From positions 1 to 36,236 of the forward strand of contig JAAZFC010000005.1 of the NCBI GenBank assembly GCA_012511955.1: a stretch of 36,236 nt of DNA, read 5' to 3'. The notes beneath the pieces are model-generated. The model did not search any database, had not been told where the DNA came from, and saw nothing but the letters and a program-made list of their open reading frames with translations. The position numbers were made by a program, and so were the translations under genes. The stretch is from Fibrobacter sp. (GTDB taxonomy: Bacteria; Fibrobacterota; Fibrobacteria; Fibrobacterales; Fibrobacteraceae). Below are positions 199-19,967 of this stretch, piece after piece (position 1 is the stretch's first letter; every line of letters starts with the position of its first letter).

Positions 199-1494
199 AT
201 GAAAGAAATTAGCCACCTCACTTTGTCGCCCGCAGCGAAGTTTAGCGGCGAAATTGTTTTGCCGGGTTCCAAAAGTATGTCCAATCGTGCCTTGCTGTTG
301 GCCGCTTTGTCCACAGGAACCACGGAAATTAAAAATTTGCTGACCAGCGATGATACTGAATACATGCAAAAAGCTTTGTTGCAGTTGGGGGTAGAAATCA
401 TTCCCACTGGCCCCGTTAGCGTAAAGCTAAAAGGCGTGGGTCAAAACTGGGCGCAAAAAGAGCGCGCGGAGTTTTACTTGGGAAATGCTGGCACTGCCAT
501 GCGGTCTTTGACCGCGGCGCTGTGCTTGGGGCGCGGAGATTTTACTTTAACCGGCGATCCCCGTATGTTGGAGCGCCCCATCGGTGATTTAGTGGATGCA
601 CTGCGCCAAGCAGGCGCGAATATTGACTACTTGGGGCAAGAGTCTTACCCCCCCATGCGAATCCAAGCTCGTGGTTTGCAAGGGGGAACTGTGCGCATCA
701 AAGGCAATACCTCGAGTCAATATTTGAGCGCCTTGCTTATGGCAGGGCCATACGCCGCCCAGCCTTTGACCATCGAGGTGGAAGGCGAACTGATTTCTAA
801 ACCCTATGTGAATATTACCCTCAACGAAATGCGTCGTTTTGGCATAAATGTGGAAAACGACGATTTTAAACGCTTTGTGGTTCCCCAGGGAAGCTATGTG
901 AGCCCTGGCGTGCTAGAGGTGGAAGGTGATGCCTCGGCGGCGAGCTATTTTTTGGCGGGGGCCGCCTTGGCCCACGGGCCGGTGCGAGTAAAAGGAGCCG
1001 GTCGCAGCAGTGTACAGGGCGATGTGCTCTTTGCTGAAGTGTTGCAAAAAATGGGAGCCCAGGTAGAGTGGGGCCCCGATTGGATTGAAGTGCGGGGCGG
1101 AACTTTACGCGGAGTGGATCTGGATTTAAACCACATTCCCGATGCGGCCATGACTTTGGTGCCATTGGCTTTATTTGCCCAAGGCAGCACCACTCTCCGT
1201 AATATCGGCAGTTGGCGAGTTAAAGAAACCGATCGCATTCACGCCATGGCCACCGAAGCTCGGAAAATAGGCGCCCAAGTGGAAGAAGGCCCAGATTATT
1301 TGGTGATTAACCCTCGTCCGGTGAGCGAATATGTACATACTGACATCGACACCTACGACGATCACCGCATGGCCATGAGCTTTGCATTGGTGAGTTTGGG
1401 GGGCATTTCCGTAACAATTAACGACCCTAAATGCGTAGAAAAGACATTTCCTAACTATTTTGCGGAATTTCAGAAAATGTTGTCGTATAATTAG
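199..1494 (+). CDS. aroA: 3-phosphoshikimate 1-carboxyvinyltransferase (EPSP synthase)
   Basis: This enzyme transfers the enolpyruvyl group of PEP to shikimate-3-phosphate, the sixth step of the cytoplasmic shikimate pathway. Its 431 residues match the usual length. Visible family motifs in order are LPGSKSMSNRALLLAALS (residues 19-36), LGNAGTAMRSL (94-104), SSQYLSALL, GDASAASYFLAGAALA, WRVKETDRIHAMA and YDDHRMAMSFA near the C-terminus. All are typical of EPSP synthase, including the Asp and Lys-Glu catalytic motifs. The second motif normally reads NAGTAMRPL; here the Pro is Ser103 (codon 505-507), the position known to affect glyphosate sensitivity in class I enzymes. The ATG at 199 has no obvious Shine-Dalgarno sequence. 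Base composition is richer in G+C than the downstream cluster. Identification is firm; altered herbicide response is inference. Confidence 0.96.
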   Translation: MKEISHLTLSPAAKFSGEIVLPGSKSMSNRALLLAALSTGTTEIKNLLTSDDTEYMQKALLQLGVEIIPTGPVSVKLKGVGQNWAQKERAEFYLGNAGTAMRSLTAALCLGRGDFTLTGDPRMLERPIGDLVDALRQAGANIDYLGQESYPPMRIQARGLQGGTVRIKGNTSSQYLSALLMAGPYAAQPLTIEVEGELISKPYVNITLNEMRRFGINVENDDFKRFVVPQGSYVSPGVLEVEGDASAASYFLAGAALAHGPVRVKGAGRSSVQGDVLFAEVLQKMGAQVEWGPDWIEVRGGTLRGVDLDLNHIPDAAMTLVPLALFAQGSTTLRNIGSWRVKETDRIHAMATEARKIGAQVEEGPDYLVINPRPVSEYVHTDIDTYDDHRMAMSFALVSLGGISVTINDPKCVEKTFPNYFAEFQKMLSYN

Positions 1495-1554
1495 ATTGTA
1501 AAGTTTTTGCGATATTAGCAAAGTATTTAGTAGTTTTTAAAGGATGTCTATAAT

Positions 1555-1559
1555 AGGAG
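1555..1559 (+). promoter_or_regulatory. Shine-Dalgarno site that fixes the start of the solute-binding protein
   Basis: AGGAG lies five bases before the ATG at 1565. It supports that codon over the in-frame ATG at 1544, which would add seven residues ahead of an otherwise standard signal peptide. Confidence 0.6.
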
Positions 1560-1564
1560 TCATT

Positions 1565-3070
1565 ATGCGCTTAAAATTTATCCTTATATTATTGCTAGCT
1601 CCTGCTATGTTAATGGCTAAGCCATTAGAAGTTTGGATTATGCCCAATGGAGCTAATCCCCAAGGTATTTTAGAAGAGCGCCTCGTTCAATTCACTAAAG
1701 AAACAGGATTGTCTGCTAAGGTAGTGGTGCTAGATTGGGGTGAGGCCTGGAGTCGTATTAGCGAAGCTTTGGAGTCTGGACAAGGTCCTGATGTCCTGCA
1801 ATTAGGGACTACTTGGGTTTCGTTTTTTGCTTCTAAAGGCTGGTTATCGCCTTTGGATGCTCACTTAGGAAAGGTAGATCCTGGTCGTTTTGTGCCAGTA
1901 AGTTGGAAAACTACCCAAGTTGATGATCAAAATTCTATTTACGCCATACCGTGGTTTATGGATGTACGCGTGCTGATGGCTAATAAAGCCCTACTGGCTG
2001 AGTCAGGGTTAGACAATGAAAATATTGTAACTTTAGATTCTTTTAGGTTGGCACTAGATCGCTTTAAAAGTTTAAACAAAACCAAAGAAACAGGAACCAT
2101 TATTTACCCCTTTGCCTTTCCTGGTAAAAGCGACTGGAATATTCCTCACAATTTTGCTCCGTGGATTTGGTCTCAAGGGGGAGATTTTATTGTTAAAGAA
2201 AACGGCCAATGGCAGAGTAATTTGCTGAACCCCAAGACCATTAAAGGCATAAAACTTTATGTGAATTTTATCTTGGACTCTTTGGTTAATGTTTCCACGC
2301 TTAAAGAAAACACCGCTCAAGTTACTAGCAGATTTAATAATGGCGAACAGCTGTTTTCCATAAACACATCTGAAGTGATAATGCAAACCCGAGTAGATGA
2401 ATCCAAAGGTGGCACTCTCAATAGTCGTATAGGGCAAGACGGAATATCAACATTTCCTATTCCCAGCGGCCCCGCAGGCTCCGTGGCTTTTATTGGTGGC
2501 AGTAATTTAGCTTTACCGAAAGCTAAACAAAATAATTCCAGAGCTTTACAATTGTTGCTGTTTTTAACTCGCGGCGATAATCTGGATATTTACACCCAAA
2601 AAATAGGTTTTTTGCCCCCGGATACCACAGTTCTTAGCGAATGGGCCCAAGACTCTCTTTATAAAGTATTAGTGGATCAAGCCAAAGAAGGTAAGGCTTA
2701 TCCAAATATCCCTAACTGGGGCGAAATAGAGTCCATGTTGGTGGAAATGTTTAGTGCGGTATGGAGTTTGCTCGATGTAGGTGGATTGTACAGTGACGAA
2801 GAACTTTATGAAATCCTCTCTCGTTATCATTTGGTGTTAAACAAGTCTTTAGATGCTGGCGAAGTTGCTGTCTTATCTAAAGATGAATTTTATGATGTAA
2901 TTAAGTCTATAAAAAGCTTAGAAGAGCTAAAGTATGGTCCCAAAAAAGAGAAATCCAGTGCAAGGGTAGATCTTTTGCAAAAAGTTGAGTTCAGAATAGC
3001 TTTGGCGGTGCTGTTTATATTGTTACTTTCATTAATAGGGGTTATAAGGCTTAGAAAAAAGCAGAATTAG
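1565..3070 (+). CDS. Membrane-anchored extracellular solute-binding protein (family 1 type)
   Basis: The protein has 501 residues from the ATG at 1565. A signal peptide (MRLKFILILLLAPAMLMA) leads into KPLEVWIMPNG and a two-lobed family 1 sugar-type binding protein with typical features: LEERLVQFTKETG, GPDVLQLGTTWVSFFASKGWL, a YAIPWFMDVRVLMANKALL hinge strand and FIGGSNLALPKA. There is no lipobox cysteine. Instead the C-terminus carries a transmembrane helix (about residues 475-495, FRIALAVLFILLLSLIGVI) and a basic tail RLRKKQN, giving a periplasmic domain tethered to the inner membrane with its C-terminus inside. No permease or ATPase gene follows; the next gene, nine bases away, encodes a diguanylate cyclase with its own sensor domain. 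A role as a sensory co-receptor is therefore more likely than transport, but this is inference. The ligand is unknown, probably a sugar or oligosaccharide from family precedent. Confidence 0.8.
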   Translation: MRLKFILILLLAPAMLMAKPLEVWIMPNGANPQGILEERLVQFTKETGLSAKVVVLDWGEAWSRISEALESGQGPDVLQLGTTWVSFFASKGWLSPLDAHLGKVDPGRFVPVSWKTTQVDDQNSIYAIPWFMDVRVLMANKALLAESGLDNENIVTLDSFRLALDRFKSLNKTKETGTIIYPFAFPGKSDWNIPHNFAPWIWSQGGDFIVKENGQWQSNLLNPKTIKGIKLYVNFILDSLVNVSTLKENTAQVTSRFNNGEQLFSINTSEVIMQTRVDESKGGTLNSRIGQDGISTFPIPSGPAGSVAFIGGSNLALPKAKQNNSRALQLLLFLTRGDNLDIYTQKIGFLPPDTTVLSEWAQDSLYKVLVDQAKEGKAYPNIPNWGEIESMLVEMFSAVWSLLDVGGLYSDEELYEILSRYHLVLNKSLDAGEVAVLSKDEFYDVIKSIKSLEELKYGPKKEKSSARVDLLQKVEFRIALAVLFILLLSLIGVIRLRKKQN

Positions 3071-3079
3071 GTTCATTTT

Positions 3080-4876
3080 ATGGATAGAATTCCATTTTAT
3101 CGCAGTTTTCGTTTTCGTTTGGTGTTTTTTATAGTAGTTATTCAACTTCTGTTTTTGAGTGTGTCTGCTATTTACACCCTGCGCAAGCAATCAGATGCGG
3201 AAACCTTAAAGGCTTTTAATAGCAACGAATCTAGCATAAAAATTGCTACTTCTTATGTAAATAATACCATGGCTGCTTTCGAGCAAAACCTTAACCTTAT
3301 GGCGGTTACTCCTGCTTTGGCATCCTTTGATCCCACAGAGAGCGGCAAATTCTTAAAAACCTATAAAGTATCTTCTCTTTTTATTACAGGAGAAAGGCTA
3401 ACTCTTTACGACAATAACAATAAATTTGTGGCAGATAATTGGATGGTGGGAGGTAGTCGTGATACAGCTGGTTTCGAAGAATTTGCTAATGTAGAACCTT
3501 TAAATGCTTATATGGGGAAAATCAAATGGGAAAACTATAGTCCCATGCGGAGTTTTGCAGTAACGGTGCAAAACTATGCTCGGGCCAATGGAGTTTTGGT
3601 GGCCGATTTTTCTTTTCGTCGTTTGCACTCTTTTTTGTCAGAGTTTAAAGTTGGAGAACAGGGGCATTTAATACTCATAGACAATTTAGGGCGCATCATT
3701 TATCACCCCGATAGTAAATGGACTCGAAAACCGACTAATATGTCAGCTTTGGGGTTTCCTGAACTTAATGTTAAGGAATACAGCACTGAAGAACCAACTT
3801 ATGTACAGTTAAATAATGGCATAAGCTACATGATTAATTATCGTTATGAAAATCAAACGGGCATTGGGATAATGACTTTGCTACCCTGTGCTGAAATAGA
3901 TAAACAAGCTAGCGTGGCCCGGCGTAGTATGTTGTATTTATACGGCGCAATGATGTTCTTTATGCTCGTTTTAATTACCTGGATGTCCACCTTGTTGTTA
4001 AAACCGTTGGTGGTCTTAACTGAAAAAATGCGTTTAGTACAAGATGGTGATTTAGATGTGGAAAGCGGAATTAAAAGAGAAGATGAAATAGGTTTATTGG
4101 CCAGTGTTTTTGATACCATGCGGATTTCCATTAAGCAATATGTCAGTGAACTCGGAGCCCATAGAGATCGTTTGGAGTTGGAGGTGGCTGAACGCACCGC
4201 TGAATTGGAAAAGGCAAACAAAGTTTTAGAGCTAATGTCTCGCACCGACGATCTAACAGGTATTCCCAATCGTCGGGATATCATGGAAAAAATAAAATAC
4301 GAAATGCACAGATCTCGCCGTAGCAACTTACCTTTTGCTTTTATTATTGGAGACATTGATAAGTTCAAGTCATTTAACGATACCTATGGGCATGATTGCG
4401 GAGATGAAGTATTGCGTTCGGTGGCTCAAACCATGCGTTCAATGCTAAGAAAACATGACTATATTGCACGGTGGGGGGGCGAAGAATTTTTGCTGGTATT
4501 GCCTGAAACTTCTGAAGAAGGTGCTATGGTGGTCGCGCAAAGAGTTAGAGCAAAAGTAGCTGAAACACAGCACAAATATGGCGATCTTAAACTGTCGGTT
4601 ACCATAACTTTAGGGGTAGCATTATTCGATGTGCGTTTGGGAATAGAGCGCAGTATTTCTCTAGCGGATCGAGCTTTGTACGAAGGTAAAGAACAGGGGC
4701 GTAACAGAGTGGTTTATTGGGATCCAGCACGAATCACTCCCGAAGAACTAGCTGAAGCAGCAAAGGATAAAGAGTCGCGCTCAGATTCAGATGCCGAACT
4801 AGATTCAAATGTGATATTTCTGTTGGATCAAGAGAGAAAAATGCGTGAGGAAAGAAATCAAAAAGATGAAAGTTAA
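3080..4876 (+). CDS. dCache-HAMP-GGDEF diguanylate cyclase
   Basis: This 598-residue inner-membrane sensor is predicted to make cyclic di-GMP from two GTP. TM1 (about 12-32) precedes a periplasmic dCache-type domain (about 38-280) ending in the diagnostic LIDNLGRIIYHPD (199-211). TM2 (about 284-307) is followed by HAMP (308-360, with EDEIGLL), a coiled coil (361-388) and a GGDEF domain (about 389-550). The active-site loop is GGEEF (466-470), and the product-inhibition I-site RKHD (457-460) lies exactly five residues upstream, so the domain should be active and feedback-inhibited. DIDKFKSFNDTYGH, the metal/substrate strand, is intact. The C-terminal 45 residues are acidic and probably disordered. 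The gene starts nine bases after the solute-binding protein gene, and its end overlaps the next gene, suggesting one operon. The dCache ligand, or a contact with the neighbouring binding protein, is not determined. Confidence 0.93.
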   Translation: MDRIPFYRSFRFRLVFFIVVIQLLFLSVSAIYTLRKQSDAETLKAFNSNESSIKIATSYVNNTMAAFEQNLNLMAVTPALASFDPTESGKFLKTYKVSSLFITGERLTLYDNNNKFVADNWMVGGSRDTAGFEEFANVEPLNAYMGKIKWENYSPMRSFAVTVQNYARANGVLVADFSFRRLHSFLSEFKVGEQGHLILIDNLGRIIYHPDSKWTRKPTNMSALGFPELNVKEYSTEEPTYVQLNNGISYMINYRYENQTGIGIMTLLPCAEIDKQASVARRSMLYLYGAMMFFMLVLITWMSTLLLKPLVVLTEKMRLVQDGDLDVESGIKREDEIGLLASVFDTMRISIKQYVSELGAHRDRLELEVAERTAELEKANKVLELMSRTDDLTGIPNRRDIMEKIKYEMHRSRRSNLPFAFIIGDIDKFKSFNDTYGHDCGDEVLRSVAQTMRSMLRKHDYIARWGGEEFLLVLPETSEEGAMVVAQRVRAKVAETQHKYGDLKLSVTITLGVALFDVRLGIERSISLADRALYEGKEQGRNRVVYWDPARITPEELAEAAKDKESRSDSDAELDSNVIFLLDQERKMREERNQKDES

Positions 4877-7058
4877 AAAATATTCATCGATTTGCGTTGT
4901 TTGGGTTATCTTACTATTCTCAGTAAATTTAAGTGCTTTTTCTACTAAAGAAGCATCCAGATGGATAGATTTAGACAGCTTGGTAGCCGAATTTGTGGAA
5001 TATGCTGATAGTGTACAACCCGGTGCGCGTTTGGGAATATCCATACGCTCGGTACAAAAAGACTCATTACTTATATCTGAACGGGGAGATGAGTGGTTTG
5101 TTCCCGCTTCTACGCTTAAAACCTTGGTTACTGCAGCTAGTATTGATGCTTTTCCCCTAGATTTTGAACCTGCCACCATAGTTGCTTTAGAAGGGGATAA
5201 AAAAGGTAGCGCTTTTTACGGAAATGTGCGTTTTTATGGTCGCGGAGATCCCAACATTTCAGGGCGTTATTTTTCCGATGCCTTAGATATACCTCGTTCC
5301 ATAGTGGATTCTATTAAAGCTTTAGGCATAGATACCATTTATGGTGATTTATTGGCAGATACTAGTTATTATCAAGGTCCCCGGCGACCCAAAGGTTGGG
5401 AAAAACGTTTTTATAACGCTTGGTATGGCGCAGATATAGCAGCTTTGTCATTTAATGATAATTGTTATCGCATAACTATAGAACCAGGTGAAAAGAATAA
5501 GGACAGTGTGCTTTATAGCATTAGCCCCGATGTGGGTTTTGTGCGCGTTATAAATAATGTTAAAACCGTTCCAGGTAGAAGAAATAGGATAAAATATCAT
5601 TTAGAACCTCACCACACTGAAATAACACTATCGGGAACTTTAGGGGTAAATGCAAGAAAATATTCTATGGTTTTGCCTGTGCGCAAACCAGTGCTTTATT
5701 TTTTAGCAGCAATGAGAACCGCCGCCCAAGAAAGGAATTTGTACATAGAAAAAGCGCATATAGCTTCCAGTTCCCCAGTTTGGTCCATGGAGTTTCCCAC
5801 AGCGCCGGTGTTAAGCATCATAGACGAAGTTAATCAGCGGTCACAAAACATGCATGCCGAAATGCTGTTGCGCAACTTGGGAGCTTTCGTTTTAAAAGAT
5901 GGCACCTCGGATGGGGGGATTTTAGCAGAAAAAATATTTTTAAAAAACCAAGATTTAAGTGAAAAAGATTTTTATTTGGTAGATGGCAGTGGCTTATCTC
6001 CTCATAATCGCATTAAACCCGATGCACTAAGTCATTTACTAGCAAAAATGGCAAGGCATCCGCAAAAAGATCTATACATAAACTCCTTGGCTGCTCCCCG
6101 TGTAAGTGGTGCCACTGGCCGCCGCTTAGAAAATTTAGAAGAACCTCATAAAACCAAGACTAAAACTGGTTTTATTAATAATGTGCAAGGTTTGGTGGGT
6201 TATATTATAACTACTCGTGGCGATACCTTGGCTGTGGCCACGCATTTAAATGGCTATAAAAAATCTGATGCCGCTGCCCGTGACTTAATGGACACTATAT
6301 GGTCGAGGTTAATGCGTCATCAAAATATTGAGAGTAAATCCCTTTTACAAGCAAAAAAGTTGCATAAAAGCTACGAGAAAGTTGATGATGTAAACCAGCG
6401 TCTAAAGCTGTTTTCCCAAGAGTTAGAGGGGGTGCCGTATTTACTTGGTCCTACTGGTGAAGGTATGAATGCAAAACTAGAGTCTAAACCGTTGATGAAT
6501 ATGGATTATTTTGATTGCGTTACATATATGGAGCATGTGATGGCTTTGGCTTATGCACCCACGAGGGCCTCAATATTTGATTTTTTGCAAAACATTCGCT
6601 ATGCAAATGGTCAAATTAGTTTTAGTTATCGCAAACATTATTTTGTGGAAGACTGGATAGCTAAAAACCCTTTGGTAAAGTTAAGGTCTTTCCCTAATGA
6701 TACAGTAATTTATCGCATTATGGATAAGAAAAAGTTCTTTGCAGCTAAAAATCTGCTATGGAATAAGCCTAATCCTAAAACTAAAATACCCTATTTACCT
6801 CGTACAGAAGCTTTGAAGTTTGCGGAAAGTGTATGGCAAGATAACGAAGAGGTTCTAGGAGTGGGGATTATGAGTACAGCGCCAAATATTTGCGTAAACC
6901 ATGTGGGTTTTTTAATTTTAGAACCTGGTAAAGTTCCGCATTTCCGCCATGCCTCACAAGCTAAAGGCATGGTGGTAACTCAAACATTAAGCAGTTATAT
7001 AAATAAGCGTTTTTTAAAATCTCCAGGTTTATTGCTCTTTGAATTTGCTAATCCATAG
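4866..7058 (+). CDS. dacB: PBP4-type D-Ala-D-Ala carboxypeptidase/endopeptidase fused to a DUF1460-like domain
   Basis: From the ATG at 4866 this is a 730-residue exported protein; a GTG at 4845 would add seven residues. The signal peptide is about 1-27. Residues 35-485 are a peptidase S13 (PBP4/DacB) domain with all three penicillin-binding motifs: STLK at 82-85, SQN at 326-328 and KTG at 433-435. It should cleave D-Ala-D-Ala stems and possibly cross-links in the periplasm. Residues 505-730 form a second domain resembling DUF1460 (NlpC/P60-like cysteine peptidases acting on cell-wall peptides): FDCVTYMEHVMALA with probable nucleophile Cys551, and NHVGFLI with His679, followed by FRHAS. S13 enzymes normally end near 480 residues, so the extra 230 are a true fusion. 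The start overlaps the diguanylate cyclase gene by 11 bases, implying translational coupling. The S13 call is firm; the DUF1460 call is good but rests on motifs. Confidence 0.9.
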   Translation: MKVKKYSSICVVWVILLFSVNLSAFSTKEASRWIDLDSLVAEFVEYADSVQPGARLGISIRSVQKDSLLISERGDEWFVPASTLKTLVTAASIDAFPLDFEPATIVALEGDKKGSAFYGNVRFYGRGDPNISGRYFSDALDIPRSIVDSIKALGIDTIYGDLLADTSYYQGPRRPKGWEKRFYNAWYGADIAALSFNDNCYRITIEPGEKNKDSVLYSISPDVGFVRVINNVKTVPGRRNRIKYHLEPHHTEITLSGTLGVNARKYSMVLPVRKPVLYFLAAMRTAAQERNLYIEKAHIASSSPVWSMEFPTAPVLSIIDEVNQRSQNMHAEMLLRNLGAFVLKDGTSDGGILAEKIFLKNQDLSEKDFYLVDGSGLSPHNRIKPDALSHLLAKMARHPQKDLYINSLAAPRVSGATGRRLENLEEPHKTKTKTGFINNVQGLVGYIITTRGDTLAVATHLNGYKKSDAAARDLMDTIWSRLMRHQNIESKSLLQAKKLHKSYEKVDDVNQRLKLFSQELEGVPYLLGPTGEGMNAKLESKPLMNMDYFDCVTYMEHVMALAYAPTRASIFDFLQNIRYANGQISFSYRKHYFVEDWIAKNPLVKLRSFPNDTVIYRIMDKKKFFAAKNLLWNKPNPKTKIPYLPRTEALKFAESVWQDNEEVLGVGIMSTAPNICVNHVGFLILEPGKVPHFRHASQAKGMVVTQTLSSYINKRFLKSPGLLLFEFANP

Positions 7059-7181
7059 CTTAATATGGCAATTTGAGTTATTCTAAACTGTAGTTTCATA
7101 AACAAAAAAAAAGACTTTTATCACTAAAAGAAGTCTATATTAATAGTAGTTCTCCTTAGTTATGTTGTTATGTGGTTGAAA

Positions 7182-7211
7182 GGGCTCGGACTTTGTCTGA
7201 GCTCTTTTTTT
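7182..7211 (+). terminator. Rho-independent terminator after the binding protein/GGDEF/dacB cluster
   Basis: A 10-bp stem (7182-7191 with 7195-7204, two G-U pairs, three-base loop) is followed directly by seven T residues. It lies 124 bases after the dacB-like stop codon and only 17 bases before the next ATG, so it separates this cluster from the OLD-like gene. Confidence 0.8.
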
Positions 7212-7227: not shown

Positions 7228-9036
7228 ATGTATATGTGCTCAATACGACTTGCTTCAATTACTATTAAAAATTTACGCTCTATAAAAGATGAAAGCTTTC
7301 CTCTTAGCGACTTTACCGCACTGATCGGTTATAACAATGCTGGCAAAACTAATATTCTTATGGGGTGCCGTTGGCTACTATCCAAATACAGTTTACCAAT
7401 AAATTATTTTAACGATACTAAAAGGCCTGTGGTGGTAGATGGGTTGATTGTGGGAATAAATGCGGAGAGTTTAAAGCGCAAATCCCCAGAAATGTTCGAT
7501 ATTGTTGCACCTTTTTTAAGAGGTTCTAGGTTGAAAATACGGCGGGTACAAAAGATTCCTGGCGGTAACTTAGAACATATTGAACTCTGGGTACAACGTC
7601 AGTTTTTGAGAAACAACAAAAAGATTAGAGAATGGGAGCCAGCGCCTTATGGTTTTGAAGAAGCCTTGGGGCATTTGTTTCCTGCACCTATACAAATTTC
7701 GGATAACTCCTTGGGCGAAGATTATGATGCCAAAAGTTATACCCGTGTGATTGTGGGTAAATTAATTGCGGAGATTTTAAAACCAGTGCAAAAAAAATAC
7801 GCTGATGTTTTAGATAATACACTGGAGTCTTTAAAAGATTTACTGAGTTTGGAAGGAGAAGAGCGCGCCCCCGAATTGCTAACTTTTGATAGGAACTTAA
7901 ACTCTAAAATGGAGCCCTTATTTCCTAGCTTGAAGCTGAAATTGCAATTACAAGCTCCCAATTTGAATGATATTTTTAAGCAGGGCACGCTAAAAGTTAT
8001 AGAAGAAAATGATGGCTTTATCAGAGAGATAGAATCCCTGGGAATGGGAGCGCAACGCGCGGTGCAAATGGCTTTAGTGCGCCACTTAGCAGAGGTTCGC
8101 AAGCATAGTTACAATGATTGTTCATGCACTTTGCTTTTGGTGGATTCTCCGGAGCTGTTTTTGCATCCCCAAGCGGTGGAATTAGTGCGAATCGCTTTGA
8201 AAAAACTAAGCACCGAGGGTTATCAAGTGATTTTTGCTACCCATAGTGCGCAGATGGTTACTTCGGACGATGTTAATTCTTCTTTATTAATTCGCAAAAA
8301 CATTCAGCGAGGCACTCACATGCGTAAACGCATAGAAGATGCGGTGCGCCAAGTGATAGAAGACGCTCCCAGCCAGTTGCAAATGCTCTTTAGTTTGAGT
8401 AATTCCAACGAGCTGCTGTTTGCGGACTATGTTTTGCTCACCGAAGGGCGTACGGAATTGCGAATTTTACCCCATCTTTTTGAACGGGTCAGTGGAGATT
8501 CATTTGCGCTTATTAAATGCGCGTTGGTGCGTCAGGGAGGTGTGTCAAATACGCGGAAATCCATGGCGGTTTTAAGGGCGATGGATATGCCAGTGCGGGC
8601 AATAGTTGATTTGGACTACGCTTTTACCACTGCTGCCCACGATGGTTTTTTAAAAAGAGATGATCGCGATATAGAGTATTGCAAAAATTTATTTAGAGGT
8701 TTAGCTTTGCAAGAACGAATTCGCTTGGTAAATGGAATTCCGGTAAATAGAAATTCCAGCGTTTCCGCCGCCGATGCCTATGCCATGCTAGCTGCCATGG
8801 ACGAAGCCCAGGATGCCATTGAAAATATTCACCAAAAAATGTTAGAAAAAGGGATTTGGGTGTGGAAAAAGGGCTCCATTGAGCATCATTTAGGGCTAAA
8901 TGGTAAAAATGAGCATGTTTGGTCTAACTTTATTGAAAGATTGCGCCGTACCAACAGACCTCACAAAGAAGTACGGGATTGGGAGGGGGTAAAACAAATG
9001 GTGCAGTGGATAAGGGATGGGAGTCCTCGAGATTAA
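7228..9036 (+). CDS. OLD-like AAA/SMC-type ATPase with C-terminal TOPRIM domain
   Basis: The protein has 602 residues. The N-terminus (SIRLASITIKNLRSIKDES) and Walker A (GYNNAGKT, 34-41) are typical of the RecF/OLD/SMC-like ATPases. The signature-like region is SLGMGAQRAVQMALVRHLA, and Walker B is LLLVDSPELFLHP with Asp306; the D-loop/H-loop region ends in FATHSAQMV. The expected acidic residue after the Walker B Asp is Ser307, so ATP hydrolysis may be slow or unusual. A TOPRIM domain follows: LLTEGRTE with Glu406, then IVDLDYA with Asp461 and Asp463. This is the nuclease arrangement of the OLD family. The gene sits 16 bases before dciA and directly upstream of gyrB, the place where recF is common. 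It may be a DNA-repair or defence nuclease; no partner such as UvrD/GajB-type helicase is visible. An ATG at 7234 is an alternative start. Confidence 0.82.
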   Translation: MYMCSIRLASITIKNLRSIKDESFPLSDFTALIGYNNAGKTNILMGCRWLLSKYSLPINYFNDTKRPVVVDGLIVGINAESLKRKSPEMFDIVAPFLRGSRLKIRRVQKIPGGNLEHIELWVQRQFLRNNKKIREWEPAPYGFEEALGHLFPAPIQISDNSLGEDYDAKSYTRVIVGKLIAEILKPVQKKYADVLDNTLESLKDLLSLEGEERAPELLTFDRNLNSKMEPLFPSLKLKLQLQAPNLNDIFKQGTLKVIEENDGFIREIESLGMGAQRAVQMALVRHLAEVRKHSYNDCSCTLLLVDSPELFLHPQAVELVRIALKKLSTEGYQVIFATHSAQMVTSDDVNSSLLIRKNIQRGTHMRKRIEDAVRQVIEDAPSQLQMLFSLSNSNELLFADYVLLTEGRTELRILPHLFERVSGDSFALIKCALVRQGGVSNTRKSMAVLRAMDMPVRAIVDLDYAFTTAAHDGFLKRDDRDIEYCKNLFRGLALQERIRLVNGIPVNRNSSVSAADAYAMLAAMDEAQDAIENIHQKMLEKGIWVWKKGSIEHHLGLNGKNEHVWSNFIERLRRTNRPHKEVRDWEGVKQMVQWIRDGSPRD

Positions 9037-9372: not shown

Positions 9373-10590
9373 ATGTCTAATGATTATTCAGCTTCAAGTA
9401 TTACCGTTTTAGAGGGTTTAGAAGCGGTGCGCTTGCGCCCTGCTATGTATATTGGTTCCACCGATGTAAGGGGACTGCACCACTTAGTATGGGAAGCAGT
9501 AGATAACTCCGTGGACGAAGCCATGGCTGGTTTCTGTGATCGCATTGATATACACATTTTACCTGGCAACGGCATACGTATTTCTGACAATGGTCGGGGT
9601 ATTCCCATCGATATACACCCTAAGGAAAAAGTGGGAACTTTAGAATTAGTTCTTACCAAGCTACATGCAGGTGGAAAATTTGATAGTGATTCTTACCAAG
9701 TTTCTGCAGGACTACATGGTGTAGGTATTAGTTGCGTAAATGCATTGGCAGAGAAGTTAATCGCTAGAGTAAAACGCAATGGTCGCCATGTGGAACAGGT
9801 TTTCAGCAAAGGTATAGCTTTAGGCCCCCAAAAAGAATTGGGTAGCACCACCGAACAAGGCACCGAAATAGAAATTTGGCCCGATGCCACTATTTTTACC
9901 GAGACGGTTTTTTCTTACGATACTTTGGCTGCTCGTTGCAGAGAATTGGCTTTTTTAAATAAAACCTTAACCATAAATATTGTGGATGAAAGGCCCGAAG
10001 AGCATATTCATACAGAATTTAGTTATCCTGGTGGTTTGGCTAGCTTTGTGGAATATGTCGATCAAAATCGCAAGCCACTATTCGATGAGCCCATCTATAT
10101 TTATAACGATGCCGGTGAATATCCTTTAGAGTTAGCCTTGCAATATAACGAAGGTTACCAAGAAAATTTTTTCAGTTTTGTAAATAATGTGAACACCTTT
10201 GATGGTGGAACCCATGTAACTGGATTTAGGTCGGGTTTGACAAGGGTGGTTTCTCGATTCGCCAATGAACTTTTAGCTAAAAACAAAAAAGATGTGCAAA
10301 TCACTGGGGATGATGTGCGCGAAGGTTTGACGGCAGCGCTGGCTATTAAAATCGCCAACCCTCAATTTGAAGGGCAAACTAAGCGTAAATTGGGTAATTC
10401 CGAAGCGCGAGGTTTGGTTGAGCAAGTGGTGGGTGAAAAACTAGAAGAGTTTTTCTTAGAAAACCCCACAATTATTAGACCCATTATAGATAAAGTTTAT
10501 AATTCTGCGGTGGCACGAGAAGCAGGCCATCGCGCTAGTAGTTTAGCTCGTCGCAAAAATGTTCTCGAAGCTGGTTGCTTACCTGGATAA
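9373..10590 (+). CDS. gyrB: DNA gyrase subunit B, N-terminal ATPase/transducer half (ends at in-frame TAA)
   Basis: These 405 residues are the GHKL ATPase and transducer domains of GyrB. Visible motifs are EAVDNSVDEAMAG with the N-box, DNGRGIPI, GLHGVGISCVNALAEK and the ATP-contacting loop GQTKRKLGN near residue 340. The frame stops at TAA (10588-10590) inside the near-universal LPGKLADC linker: the sequence reads CLPG-stop-LVDCSS, so the stop replaces a Lys codon and one A-to-T change (AAA to TAA) explains it. The following frame continues with a complete TOPRIM half. Together the halves give 637 residues, a normal GyrB length. Other genes here use TAA as an ordinary stop, so general recoding is excluded. 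A sequencing error, a nonsense mutation with readthrough, or a genuinely split gyrase remain possible. Confidence 0.93.
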   Translation: MSNDYSASSITVLEGLEAVRLRPAMYIGSTDVRGLHHLVWEAVDNSVDEAMAGFCDRIDIHILPGNGIRISDNGRGIPIDIHPKEKVGTLELVLTKLHAGGKFDSDSYQVSAGLHGVGISCVNALAEKLIARVKRNGRHVEQVFSKGIALGPQKELGSTTEQGTEIEIWPDATIFTETVFSYDTLAARCRELAFLNKTLTINIVDERPEEHIHTEFSYPGGLASFVEYVDQNRKPLFDEPIYIYNDAGEYPLELALQYNEGYQENFFSFVNNVNTFDGGTHVTGFRSGLTRVVSRFANELLAKNKKDVQITGDDVREGLTAALAIKIANPQFEGQTKRKLGNSEARGLVEQVVGEKLEEFFLENPTIIRPIIDKVYNSAVAREAGHRASSLARRKNVLEAGCLPG

Positions 10591-11286
10591 TTGGTAGATT
10601 GTTCTAGCCGAAACCCCGAAGAATGTGAGCTGTTCTTGGTGGAAGGTGATTCTGCGGGTGGTTCTGCAAAACAAGGCCGAGATCGTCACTTTCAAGCTAT
10701 AATGCCTTTAAAAGGGAAGATTCTCAATGTGGAAAAAGCTCGTTTGGATAGGATCATCGGCAGTGAAGAAATTCAGCTGATAGTTTCTGCCATTGGAACG
10801 GGAATTGGCGAAGCGTTTAATATGGAAAAGCTGCGTTATCATAAAATTATTATTATGACTGATGCCGATGTGGACGGCTCCCATATTCAAACTTTATTGA
10901 TGACTTTCTTTTTTAGACAAATGCGACAATTAATAGAAGGTGGTCATATATATTTGGCACAGCCGCCTTTGTATAAACTAAAAGTTGGTAGAAAAGAGTC
11001 TTATTTGTTTTATGAAGAAGAAAAAGATGAACTTGTAGCTCAATTAACTGATGATGAATGCAGAAGAATGTATTTGCAACGCTATAAAGGTCTGGGTGAA
11101 ATGAACCCTGATCAGTTAAAGGAAACCACCATGGATCCGGAGAAGCGTTTGTTAAAGCAAATTCGTTTGGACGATTTAGTAACTGCAGACCAAGTTTTTA
11201 CTCTGCTAATGGGCGAAGAGGTAGAACCTCGTCGTCGATTTATAGAAGATAATGCTCACTTAGTTTTGGATACTTTGGATATTTAA
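10591..11286 (+). CDS. gyrB: DNA gyrase subunit B, TOPRIM/C-terminal half
   Basis: This is the continuation of gyrB in the same frame, directly after the TAA. The first codon, TTG, could act as an initiator, making a TAATTG stop-start junction, but no Shine-Dalgarno sequence precedes it. The 231 residues carry the full TOPRIM signature: [18 protein letters not shown] (the catalytic Glu), [15 protein letters not shown] and [11 protein letters not shown] with the metal-binding DxD. They then show the GyrA-contacting C-terminus [13 protein letters not shown] and [11 protein letters not shown]. The insert-free length indicates the short, non-proteobacterial type of GyrB. If expressed separately it would have to associate with the N-terminal half; if not, gyrase would be lost, which is hard to reconcile with viability unless another copy exists elsewhere. 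Confidence 0.92.
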
Positions 11287-16625: not shown

Positions 16626-19600
16626 ATGCAAAAAAATATTCACAAATTCCCTCGTAGTACAATTTTGCTGCTTATTTTAGCAGTTGTTGCTTTGTGGGCA
16701 GATATTGACACTTTAGAAATTTATGCTTTTAAAGTTGAGTTTAAATATGAAGATCCCGACAATTCTTTAACTACTGGACGCGGGTTATTTGATAGTGATG
16801 CAGATACTGCTAGTGCTAATTATTCCTTAGATCCCATGGGGAATAGAGCCAGTTCACTGTACTGGACTAAGCATTTAGATTTTGCCAAAAACTATTTTGC
16901 CGCAGCGAGTTGCAATAAGTTGCATATAAGTTATAAGCTTTTTCCCCAGCATAAAAGATCTTATGTGTTAGATAAAGGAATAATAGATTACAATAGAACT
17001 GCTCGCAAAAAAGATGAAAAGGTGGCGGAGTTTGACGATGCTCGCTCCCAAGATTATATGACTTTTGTGTGGGATGCTTTGCAAAAAGCCGCTGAAGACC
17101 CTAAAGATTCCCCTTTTGCCGATGAATTACCGCTTTCTCCACGGAAAAAACGCGCTTATTTGATAATCCATGCCGGAGCTTCGCGTTTAGTAGATGGTGG
17201 CTCCATGGGTACAGCTGGAGCTGATACACCCGGTGATTTTATGGATGTCTTTGTAAATAAGCGCAACGATACTTGGGGGTATTTAGCTGGGGATTCTCTG
17301 CGTAAAAAGTCTAAAAAAGGCTTTGTTTTAGAAAATTACCCCCTAGACACCATCCACGAAGTCATGGTGCTTAGTGAAACTGCTTCTCAGGATGGCTTAA
17401 ATTGGGGAACTAATGGGATTTTAGTAAATCAAATTGCCCAGCAGTTGGGGATGCCTCAAACTTATGATATTGTAAAAGGTATATCCCGTTTAGGATATTA
17501 TGATGTCATGGATTTTGCTGGTTATAATGCCGCTAATGGCTTTTTGCCGGTCTTACCCAGCGCATGGCTACGGGCTTTTATGGGCTGGTCAAAAACCATC
17601 AACGCCCGTCCCAATTCCCAAGGGGAATTTGAGTTTGAACTGCCCCGCGCTGGCTCTTGCGGTAACGATATTGTTCGCATAGATATTTCTCCTTCGGAGC
17701 ATTTATTAGTAGAAAATCGCCAGCGCAGCGCTCAAAAAAATGGCAATATAAAAATAGAATTAGACAATAAAAGTGTAGAAATTCCCGTGGATAGCTTGCA
17801 TTTAATGTTCCAAGATTCAATTTGCAATGACAAAGGCACGGATTGTAAAATAAATAAACGCAAAGCTAAGGGAATAATTACCAATATAGATTCTTACGAT
17901 GCTGCTCTACCTGCTTCGGGGGTGGCTATTTGGCATGTAAATGATTGGGTTTTGCGAGAAACTCTTAAATATAATGCTGTGAATTTATGGTCTGGAGATG
18001 CTTTTAGGGATTATCATTTCGGAATTTCTTTATTGGAAGCTGACGGGATACCCAGTATTGGAAAAGAATTTAAAAATGCTTTGGGGCAGCCAGCATTTGA
18101 TTATGGAAGTGGCGCTGACTTATTGCCTCATATTCGCAAAGGTGATACGGTAAACAACTTAAAAACTCAAGGTTATACTAACAGCGCCACCACTTTTGGG
18201 GCTTATAGTGGCATAGAAGTTTCGGTTAGCCCCATGACCAAGACCACGGAAAAAACCGCCAATAGCTTTTTGGGAGATAGTGTGATAAATTGGCGTTCAG
18301 CGGCTATGAAAGTAAAGGTGAGTTGGGGAGAGGATGCCTTGGCAGGCTCTGAATGGCCTCGTCAAATTGGAGATGGGATTTTACCTGGCCATGGAGTTAT
18401 GATAGATTTGCCAAAATCTGTAAAACAAGAAAAAGCGGTGGCGGTGCTAAGTCAGCAAGGATTGTTGCAAGTTTTTGGCGCCAAAGGTGAAGTTCTTTTC
18501 GATGGAGTGCAAGTCTTGGAAAAAGAGCATCCCAGTATTGCCGATAGTATAGAAGAAATTTCTATTTGGCCTTTGGGTTCACCGCTGGGCGAAAGTTGGG
18601 GTTTAGCTGCGAGGGACTCTTCTCTTTTTAGTTTGCACCAAAACAGCTTGGTTAAAACTCAGCTTGTGGCTCCTGCAGAAAAATTGAGTTATCAGCGGCA
18701 AAGCGTGGAATTATCTGGGCATAAGGTGGGTCCCATGCTTAGCGATAGTTTGGTTTGGGTGGCAGACGAGCAGGGGCTTAAAGCTTTTGAAACCAGTTCT
18801 CTAAAAGAGCGTTTTATCATCAAGTGGACCAAGGAATTTTATCCTACTGATATGGCGATGTGCGGTGATTTAGACGGTGATGGCAAAGGGGAAGTGGCAG
18901 TTATTGCCAATGATGGTCGTTTGGGCATTTTTTACAGCCAGTCCCATAATCTTTCGGTTTTTCCCTCCATGGGCAATCACACTGATTTTAACGATGTGCA
19001 TTTTAACCTAGCCTGCACAGATTTTAACAGAAATGGCAGGCCTGAAGCTTTTATTTTGGGTGACAAAGGTACTGCTTGGTTTGTGAACTTAAAAACCAAG
19101 AAAAGACAAGCTATGATTCGCAACTATGATTGTGGAATTCAGAGCGAAAATCCCAAAATTCCAGGGGAAATTAGTCCTATAACTTTAGCAGATATTAATG
19201 GTGATGGCTACCCTGAAGCGATATTTTTGGGTCGCAATAATCTTTATGCCGTAGATTCCAATGGTGTACCTTTGGCGGGTTTTCCCGTGCTTTTAAGCAA
19301 AAATTTACCTGAAGAATTGTTGTATAGCACGCCCCTAGCTGCGGATGTGAATGGAGATGGGTTTCTGGAAATCTTAGTACCATTATCCACCGGTAAGGTT
19401 TTAGCCGTGGATCACCAAGGCAAGCTTTTAAAAGATAAATGGCCGCGTAGTGTGGGTTTCACAGCCTATGATAGTATATATCAACCTCTAAGTTTGTGGG
19501 GCTTTCCCGGTACAGACAAAAATCTTTTGCTTTATGGCGGGCAACGGGATTTTGTTAATGCACAAAATATTGCCGAATACAGAAATCACCCAGGGCAATG

Positions 19601-19967
19601 GCTGGACTATAAGGGTGGTGCAGAGCGTCAAAGTTGGCTAGATCCCAAAAAGCTATCTGCCATAAAAGTGCAGAAATCTACCAAAAGCATAGATGAATTT
19701 ATGATTTTCCCTAATCCAGTGCGCCAGGGCAAAGCTCAAGTGCGCTATTCCCTGGGGACAGTGGCGCAAAAAGCGGTTTTAAAGCTTTTTGATATTGCGG
19801 GTAACGAAGTTCTAAAAGTTGATTTACATGGCTTGGGTAAAGGCTATAATGAGCAATATTTGGGGGAAATCAAAGCTTTGGGTAGCGATGTTTATTCAGT
19901 TTTGTTAGAAGTGTGGTTTGAAGGGGAAAAGAAACAAAAATGGGACCGCATTGCCGTAGTGCGTTAG
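16626..19967 (+). CDS. Secreted M6-peptidase-like protein with degenerate active site, FG-GAP/VCBS-type repeats and type IX-like sorting domain
   Basis: This 1113-residue exported protein has a signal peptide of about 1-25 (ending VALWA). Residues 30-520 resemble the M6 (immune inhibitor A-like) metalloprotease module, including the downstream VAIWHVND and FGISLLEADG blocks. At the position of the zinc motif, normally HExxH before LGLPDLYD, the sequence is NQIAQQLGMPQTYD (Asn268, Gln269, Gln272), so the zinc ligands and the catalytic Glu are missing and protease activity is unlikely. Residues 740-930 hold four calcium-binding-like repeats (DLDGDGKGE, DFNRNGRPE, DINGDGYPE, DVNGDGFLE) typical of FG-GAP/VCBS propellers. 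Residues 1020-1113 (MIFPNPV to RIAVVR) form a sorting domain of the type IX-like class. Likely a surface adhesin or binding protein. It begins 34 bases after the LolB-like gene. Confidence 0.8.
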   Translation: MQKNIHKFPRSTILLLILAVVALWADIDTLEIYAFKVEFKYEDPDNSLTTGRGLFDSDADTASANYSLDPMGNRASSLYWTKHLDFAKNYFAAASCNKLHISYKLFPQHKRSYVLDKGIIDYNRTARKKDEKVAEFDDARSQDYMTFVWDALQKAAEDPKDSPFADELPLSPRKKRAYLIIHAGASRLVDGGSMGTAGADTPGDFMDVFVNKRNDTWGYLAGDSLRKKSKKGFVLENYPLDTIHEVMVLSETASQDGLNWGTNGILVNQIAQQLGMPQTYDIVKGISRLGYYDVMDFAGYNAANGFLPVLPSAWLRAFMGWSKTINARPNSQGEFEFELPRAGSCGNDIVRIDISPSEHLLVENRQRSAQKNGNIKIELDNKSVEIPVDSLHLMFQDSICNDKGTDCKINKRKAKGIITNIDSYDAALPASGVAIWHVNDWVLRETLKYNAVNLWSGDAFRDYHFGISLLEADGIPSIGKEFKNALGQPAFDYGSGADLLPHIRKGDTVNNLKTQGYTNSATTFGAYSGIEVSVSPMTKTTEKTANSFLGDSVINWRSAAMKVKVSWGEDALAGSEWPRQIGDGILPGHGVMIDLPKSVKQEKAVAVLSQQGLLQVFGAKGEVLFDGVQVLEKEHPSIADSIEEISIWPLGSPLGESWGLAARDSSLFSLHQNSLVKTQLVAPAEKLSYQRQSVELSGHKVGPMLSDSLVWVADEQGLKAFETSSLKERFIIKWTKEFYPTDMAMCGDLDGDGKGEVAVIANDGRLGIFYSQSHNLSVFPSMGNHTDFNDVHFNLACTDFNRNGRPEAFILGDKGTAWFVNLKTKKRQAMIRNYDCGIQSENPKIPGEISPITLADINGDGYPEAIFLGRNNLYAVDSNGVPLAGFPVLLSKNLPEELLYSTPLAADVNGDGFLEILVPLSTGKVLAVDHQGKLLKDKWPRSVGFTAYDSIYQPLSLWGFPGTDKNLLLYGGQRDFVNAQNIAEYRNHPGQWLDYKGGAERQSWLDPKKLSAIKVQKSTKSIDEFMIFPNPVRQGKAQVRYSLGTVAQKAVLKLFDIAGNEVLKVDLHGLGKGYNEQYLGEIKALGSDVYSVLLEVWFEGEKKQKWDRIAVVR

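Follow-up and report, generated by a model that had tools for sequence, protein, structure and literature searches.

A membrane-anchored solute-binding protein paired with a diguanylate cyclase in Fibrobacter: a possible tethered co-receptor for beta-gluco-oligosaccharides

Several bacteria are known to use a solute-binding protein (SBP) for signalling. In Vibrio cholerae the SBP NspS, which binds polyamines, is encoded immediately upstream of MbaA, a membrane cyclic di-GMP (c-di-GMP) enzyme with GGDEF and EAL domains (PMC8079147), and in Salmonella Typhimurium the ligand response of STM1987, a dCache_1-GGDEF cyclase, requires the periplasmic arginine-binding protein ArtI (PMC8846402). The CuaD-CuaS-CuaR system of Ruminiclostridium cellulolyticum has a second, sensing-only, lipid-anchored SBP for cellulose breakdown products such as cellobiose; this SBP acts on a two-helix HAMP receptor with a histidine kinase and a regulator as output, and the receptor domain by itself does not bind the sugars (PMC10384115). 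We analysed a stretch of 36,236 nucleotides of Fibrobacter sp. DNA (assembly GCA_012511955.1, contig JAAZFC010000005.1, positions 1 to 36,236 of the forward strand; hereafter the window) and consider here two of its genes, one for an SBP with a C-terminal membrane helix and one, directly behind it, for a diguanylate cyclase.

Like NspS-MbaA, the Fibrobacter pair has its SBP gene placed directly ahead of the gene for a membrane c-di-GMP enzyme, and it probably uses the SBP for signalling as well. It differs in the SBP, a membrane-anchored protein of the beta-glycoside type, and in the enzyme, which carries GGDEF only; neither the SBP type nor the output domains place the pair in the NspS-MbaA family. 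With ArtI/STM1987 it has in common a dCache-like GGDEF cyclase that may depend on an SBP, in this case a sugar-type one (SBP_bac_1) encoded next to the cyclase, and with the Cua system a putative sensing-only SBP for cellulose breakdown products that would act on a two-helix HAMP receptor, here with c-di-GMP as output. What sets it apart from all three is the C-terminal anchor, the union of a beta-glycoside SBP with c-di-GMP output, and a second copy of the SBP linked to a wall enzyme. A literature search found no description of a Fibrobacter SBP-cyclase pair, and the work on F. succinogenes S85 (PMC6851124) does not describe one. Taking sequence, structure models and analogy with the known systems together, we consider it rather probable that SBP and cyclase make up a two-protein receptor, in which the SBP is a tethered beta-gluco-oligosaccharide co-receptor controlling c-di-GMP, and the SBP would probably sense cellulose pieces instead of importing them.

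The evidence is comparative throughout, and the genomes compared are mostly incomplete metagenome assemblies. A search of 111 genomes of the family, with a Fibrobacter SBP of this kind (SBP-A) and the sensor half of its cyclase as queries, found 83 SBP-A loci and 97 sensor rows. The cyclase adjoins SBP-A at 83 of the 83 loci, on the same strand and the same contig and within about 150 bases, and SBP-A without the cyclase was never seen among them; this is far beyond chance, with the reservation that the 83 loci, having a common ancestry, do not count as independent. A second collection of 80 loci came from named genomes, titled Fibrobacter or Fibrobacteres in nearly all cases; Fibrobacter intestinalis ATCC 43854 is among them, as are many metagenome assemblies labelled F. 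succinogenes. It comprises 55 loci of type A, where the anchored SBP is followed by the cyclase, 23 of type B, where an anchored SBP lies between aroA and the gene for a PBP4/AmiA fusion and the cyclase is absent, and 2 ended by the contig before the partner; no readable locus among the 80 lacks a partner gene. With the window counted, SBP-A and the cyclase stand together in 56/56 readable type A loci. The suggestion of an earlier note on this DNA, that the binding protein is tied to the cyclase and free of transport, is supported, by both counts as to the pairing and by the permease distribution given below as to transport. As a separate observation, in genome G001 (L073:6427-7990) SBP-A is broken up between two frames that overlap, and the adjoining cyclase is intact.

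A third type, C, is an unanchored SBP, in several cases with a lipobox, encoded beside MalK, MalF and a long MalG gene. With type C as outgroup, the anchored SBPs form one group in the SBP tree (100*); type B, being a long branch, is placed ambiguously with respect to the window. The window and genome G010 (L041/L127) merge the settings of types A and B, in the order aroA, SBP, cyclase, PBP4/AmiA. Outside the family, genome G095, which belongs to a different family of the phylum, has an anchored SBP (33% identity) divergent to a dCache-HAMP-Hpt-ATPase protein (L057:7459-11782), with response-regulator and CheA-like genes nearby; read from its domains, this is a sensory pair of anchored SBP and dCache protein with a kinase output instead.

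In the window the open reading frame of the SBP is 1544-3070, and the start at 1565 is preferred, with an AGGAG ribosome site ahead of it. The resulting protein of 501 amino acids (1565-3070, plus strand; SBP_bac_1, 8.5e-26) begins with a signal peptide at 1565-1618 (MRLKFILILLLAPAMLMA, followed by KP) and ends with a hydrophobic helix and the basic tail RKKQN (2996-3067, IALAVLFILLLSLIGVIRLRKKQN). It contains no cysteine along its whole length and has no lipobox, and no permease genes were found at the locus, which agrees with what had been claimed from the sequence. Every full-length related SBP of type A or type B has this C-terminal anchor. Anchoring of SBPs at the C-terminus is known from archaeal importers. 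A search of the window's genome for the Peripla_BP_4 family gave no match.

By sequence, two solved chains come nearest: the Thermus thermophilus beta-glycosides-binding protein (PDB 7c63 series) and Clostridium thermocellum CbpB (PDB 7x0i, PMC9601137). Their phmmer values are 2.1e-75 and 4.3e-59, and across the binding domain the identity is about 30-32%. The AlphaFold model (pLDDT 92.7) gives the same kinship in Foldseek, the T. thermophilus protein being the best fold match (TM-score by target 0.91-0.95) and CbpB matching at 0.90-0.91. Both relatives differ from the Fibrobacter SBP in being importer subunits with neither a C-terminal membrane anchor nor a cyclase partner. Residues W58, W84, D133 and W191 align with W41, W67, E117 and W177 of the solved relative, whose ligand-site role is read from the titles of deposited variant entries (W41A, W67A, E117A, W177X); the set W, W, D, W is identical across all anchored SBPs compared, the change from E to D being conservative. 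The affinity of CbpB (KD) is 0.56-1.89 uM for cellodextrins from cellobiose to cellopentaose and about 11 uM for laminaribiose (PMC9601137). Sequence and fold kinship, ligand-site residues and these affinities make a beta-gluco-oligosaccharide the likeliest ligand, the exact one not being assignable.

The cyclase (3080-4876, plus strand, 598 amino acids) has two membrane helices, a HAMP domain at 3980-4135 (1.3e-8) and a GGDEF domain at 4244-4708 (1e-46), and a Pfam search gave no EAL match in it. Its inhibition site RKHD (4448-4459) and active site GGEEF (4475-4489) are both spanned by RKHDYIARWGGEEF, and RxxD...GGEEF is kept in 57/57 cyclases compared. Matches to dCache_1 at E<=0.001 were obtained for 33 of 40 aligned cyclases. 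The AlphaFold model of the cyclase has a pLDDT of 84, and its fold search returned mostly GGDEF domains, with little information on the sensor domain. In the window's genome there are 13 GGDEF matches and 3 PilZ matches, which means that c-di-GMP has possible receivers.

From this we propose that the ancestor of the SBP was the binding subunit of a CUT1-type importer for beta-gluco-oligosaccharides, and that the SBP would be exported and then held at the inner membrane via its C-terminal helix, where it would close on a short periplasmic beta-glucan (a cello-, laminari- or similar oligosaccharide). Either the open or the closed form would contact the cyclase at its dCache-like periplasmic domain. 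Through the two membrane helices and HAMP the change would be relayed to the GGDEF domain, so that c-di-GMP synthesis is altered. The ligand identity, the physical contact and the sign of the response are what we infer in this scheme; the anatomy of the genes, the conserved pairing, its independence from the permease, the fold with its ligand-site residues and the intact motifs are observed.

The same apparent operon carries a wall enzyme. The window's genome is an assembly of 2.68 Mb in 150 contigs, 97% complete, assigned to Fibrobacterota, and the order in the window is aroA (EPSP synthase, 199-1494, plus strand, 4.5e-124), SBP, cyclase, PBP4/AmiA, followed by a strong intrinsic terminator-like site with a 14-pair stem and a T run (7178-7208, plus strand), which closes the unit; no such sites were found between the SBP, cyclase and PBP4/AmiA genes. 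The SBP stop at 3070 is separated from the cyclase ATG at 3080 by 9 bases, and the PBP4/AmiA ATG at 4866, with GAGGAAAG upstream, gives an overlap of 11 bases with the cyclase stop; both spacings are as first described, and every coordinate of the earlier note proved right. The last gene (4866-7058, plus strand) encodes a secreted protein of 730 amino acids, and its description as a PBP4/DUF1460 fusion is confirmed by Peptidase_S13 (4.4e-60) and AmiA-like, formerly DUF1460 (4e-28), matches. PBP4/AmiA homologues occur in 120/168 genomes of the phylum, a few of them as partial matches, and nearly always as a single copy. In outgroup families and several genera of the family aroA stands directly before PBP4/AmiA with no SBP, and by this gene order aroA-PBP4/AmiA is the older gene pair, between which an SBP cassette was probably inserted. 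At 23 loci a type B SBP directly precedes PBP4/AmiA, with aroA ahead of it in nearly every case, and the order SBP-cyclase-PBP4 occurs in two genomes only, those of the window and G010. In the fusion tree these two, with their SBP-cyclase cassette between aroA and PBP4, form the deepest branch of the family, and a recent chance event as the origin of the merged gene order is disfavoured on this ground. The simplest reading, which we favour without regarding it as proven, is an early insertion of the SBP or the SBP-cyclase cassette between aroA and PBP4/AmiA, later duplicated and moved, although independent events may lie behind the arrangements.

The earlier note had drawn a single linear pathway from sugar through c-di-GMP to wall remodelling, and this is not supported as drawn: PBP4/AmiA is class-wide, has aroA as its older neighbour and follows the cyclase in two genomes only, so that the cyclase-to-wall step lacks support from conservation, and PBP4/AmiA is probably an operon neighbour and not an output of the cyclase. 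A wall link of another kind stands, since a separate, cyclase-less anchored SBP precedes PBP4/AmiA in many relatives, and conservation of this order supports some kind of link between that SBP and the wall enzyme. We put forward only tentatively, and hold it somewhat less likely to be right than wrong, the wider proposition that a family-wide tethered beta-gluco-oligosaccharide co-receptor sets c-di-GMP in these cellulose degraders, that its duplicated sister has been given a peptidoglycan carboxypeptidase/amidase as partner and not a transporter, and that the window, which branches deepest in the family, shows both partners in one operon.

Whether the SBP could serve transport depends on the permeases. 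A MalF-type permease was found in 23/111 genomes of the family; none was found in genera g2, g3, g4 and g5, yet SBP-A is kept there, and more than 70 genomes carry SBP-A with no MalF-type permease. In genus g6 the importer is present and the anchored SBPs are absent, and in the genus of the F. succinogenes-labelled genomes there are anchored copies only, with no MalF-type permease and no type C found. Transport through a permease encoded elsewhere is largely rejected on this distribution. The window's own genome has a lipobox-bearing SBP paralogue (33-35% identical) with MalK at the end of one contig and MalF with MalG at the start of another, and these contigs presumably join; the claim that no permease elsewhere uses the SBP holds for most genomes carrying the pair and is weakened in this one. 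As this genome encodes one CUT1 importer, the SBP may here have a second role in transport. That the SBP is in fact an extra binding subunit for such an importer, with the cyclase adjacency incidental, we regard as highly improbable: several SBPs can share one permease, and genes for MalK, a CUT1 SBP, MalF and MalG are in the window's genome, but SBP-A is held by a C-terminal helix as against the N-terminal lipobox of the importer's own SBP, and neither its retention where MalF is missing nor its constant company with the cyclase suits such a role.

The CUT1 importer is one of several points that weigh against a co-receptor. Ligand-site residues at the same four positions are also kept in transporter-type SBPs and cannot separate sensing from transport; the dCache_1 match of the window's cyclase is partial, 37.5 bits against a Pfam cut-off of 45, and of the proposed dCache-HAMP-GGDEF architecture the HAMP, the GGDEF and the intact GGEEF and RxxD sites are firm; the swap of output is known from G095 as a single genome. 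There are, moreover, 13 cyclase loci (14 rows) without SBP-A alongside, ten of them in genomes without SBP-A, and the five inspected (L173-L177) are paralogues in one Fibrobacter subclade, sharing about 41% identity with the Fibrobacter query, with no SBP neighbour and in several cases the same neighbours, so the cyclase family can occur or work without SBP-A. Such solo cyclases, and the confinement of all SBP-A orthologues to one vertically inherited family, could be taken to mean that the pair is kept merely by co-inheritance of closely spaced genes, the SBP being a non-signalling stabiliser or relic; we find this very unlikely, given the differing chromosomal settings of the pair across genera, the invariant ligand-site residues and the anchored SBP that, in a distant family, adjoins a dCache protein of different output. 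More weight, though it is still unlikely, goes to the idea that the SBP senses a non-dietary saccharide, for example an endogenous one derived from the wall or envelope, and that SBP and cyclase with PBP4/AmiA report on or tune wall turnover. The type B slot before PBP4/AmiA, which the window cassette also occupies, the ligand-site residues retained by type B SBPs and the fall of wall-turnover proteins of F. succinogenes on cellulose (PMC6851124) speak for it, but the nearest solved relatives are beta-glucan binders, SBP-A and the cyclase usually lie away from PBP4/AmiA, and outgroup PBP4/AmiA has no SBP at all.

Some further features were seen on the way. In the CUT1 importer, the MalG-like permease (L008, L061:9712-11886) is about 690-740 amino acids long and has a repeat-like insert of about 400 residues ahead of the permease domain. 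The terminator in the window is followed by an OLD-like ATPase/TOPRIM gene (7228-9036) and then by a DUF721-gyrB stretch, whose gyrB-like gene (9373-11286) is interrupted by a single in-frame TAA at 10588-10590 (CLPG*LVDC); this could reflect variation between strains, real damage, or an error in sequencing or assembly. A large secreted protein is encoded at 16626-19967, and its C-terminal end resembles, by eye, a type IX secretion signal.

For the co-receptor that we propose, the biology of F. succinogenes S85 offers a setting, as cellulose, compared with glucose, raises its c-di-GMP about 2.5-fold and also raises a CbpB-like SBP, FSU_1047, while the conditions to which Fibrobacter GGDEF regulators respond were stated as not known (PMC6851124). 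Fibrobacter is a major rumen cellulose degrader, and the SBP-cyclase pair is a specific and testable candidate for the missing sensor. The CbpB-like SBPs of Fibrobacter, so far read as importer parts, may be sensors, since the F. succinogenes-labelled genus has the anchored copies only and no MalF-type permease. In the papers found, c-di-GMP control via a separate SBP is described for polyamines and for arginine, and a sugar-type example would widen this scheme.

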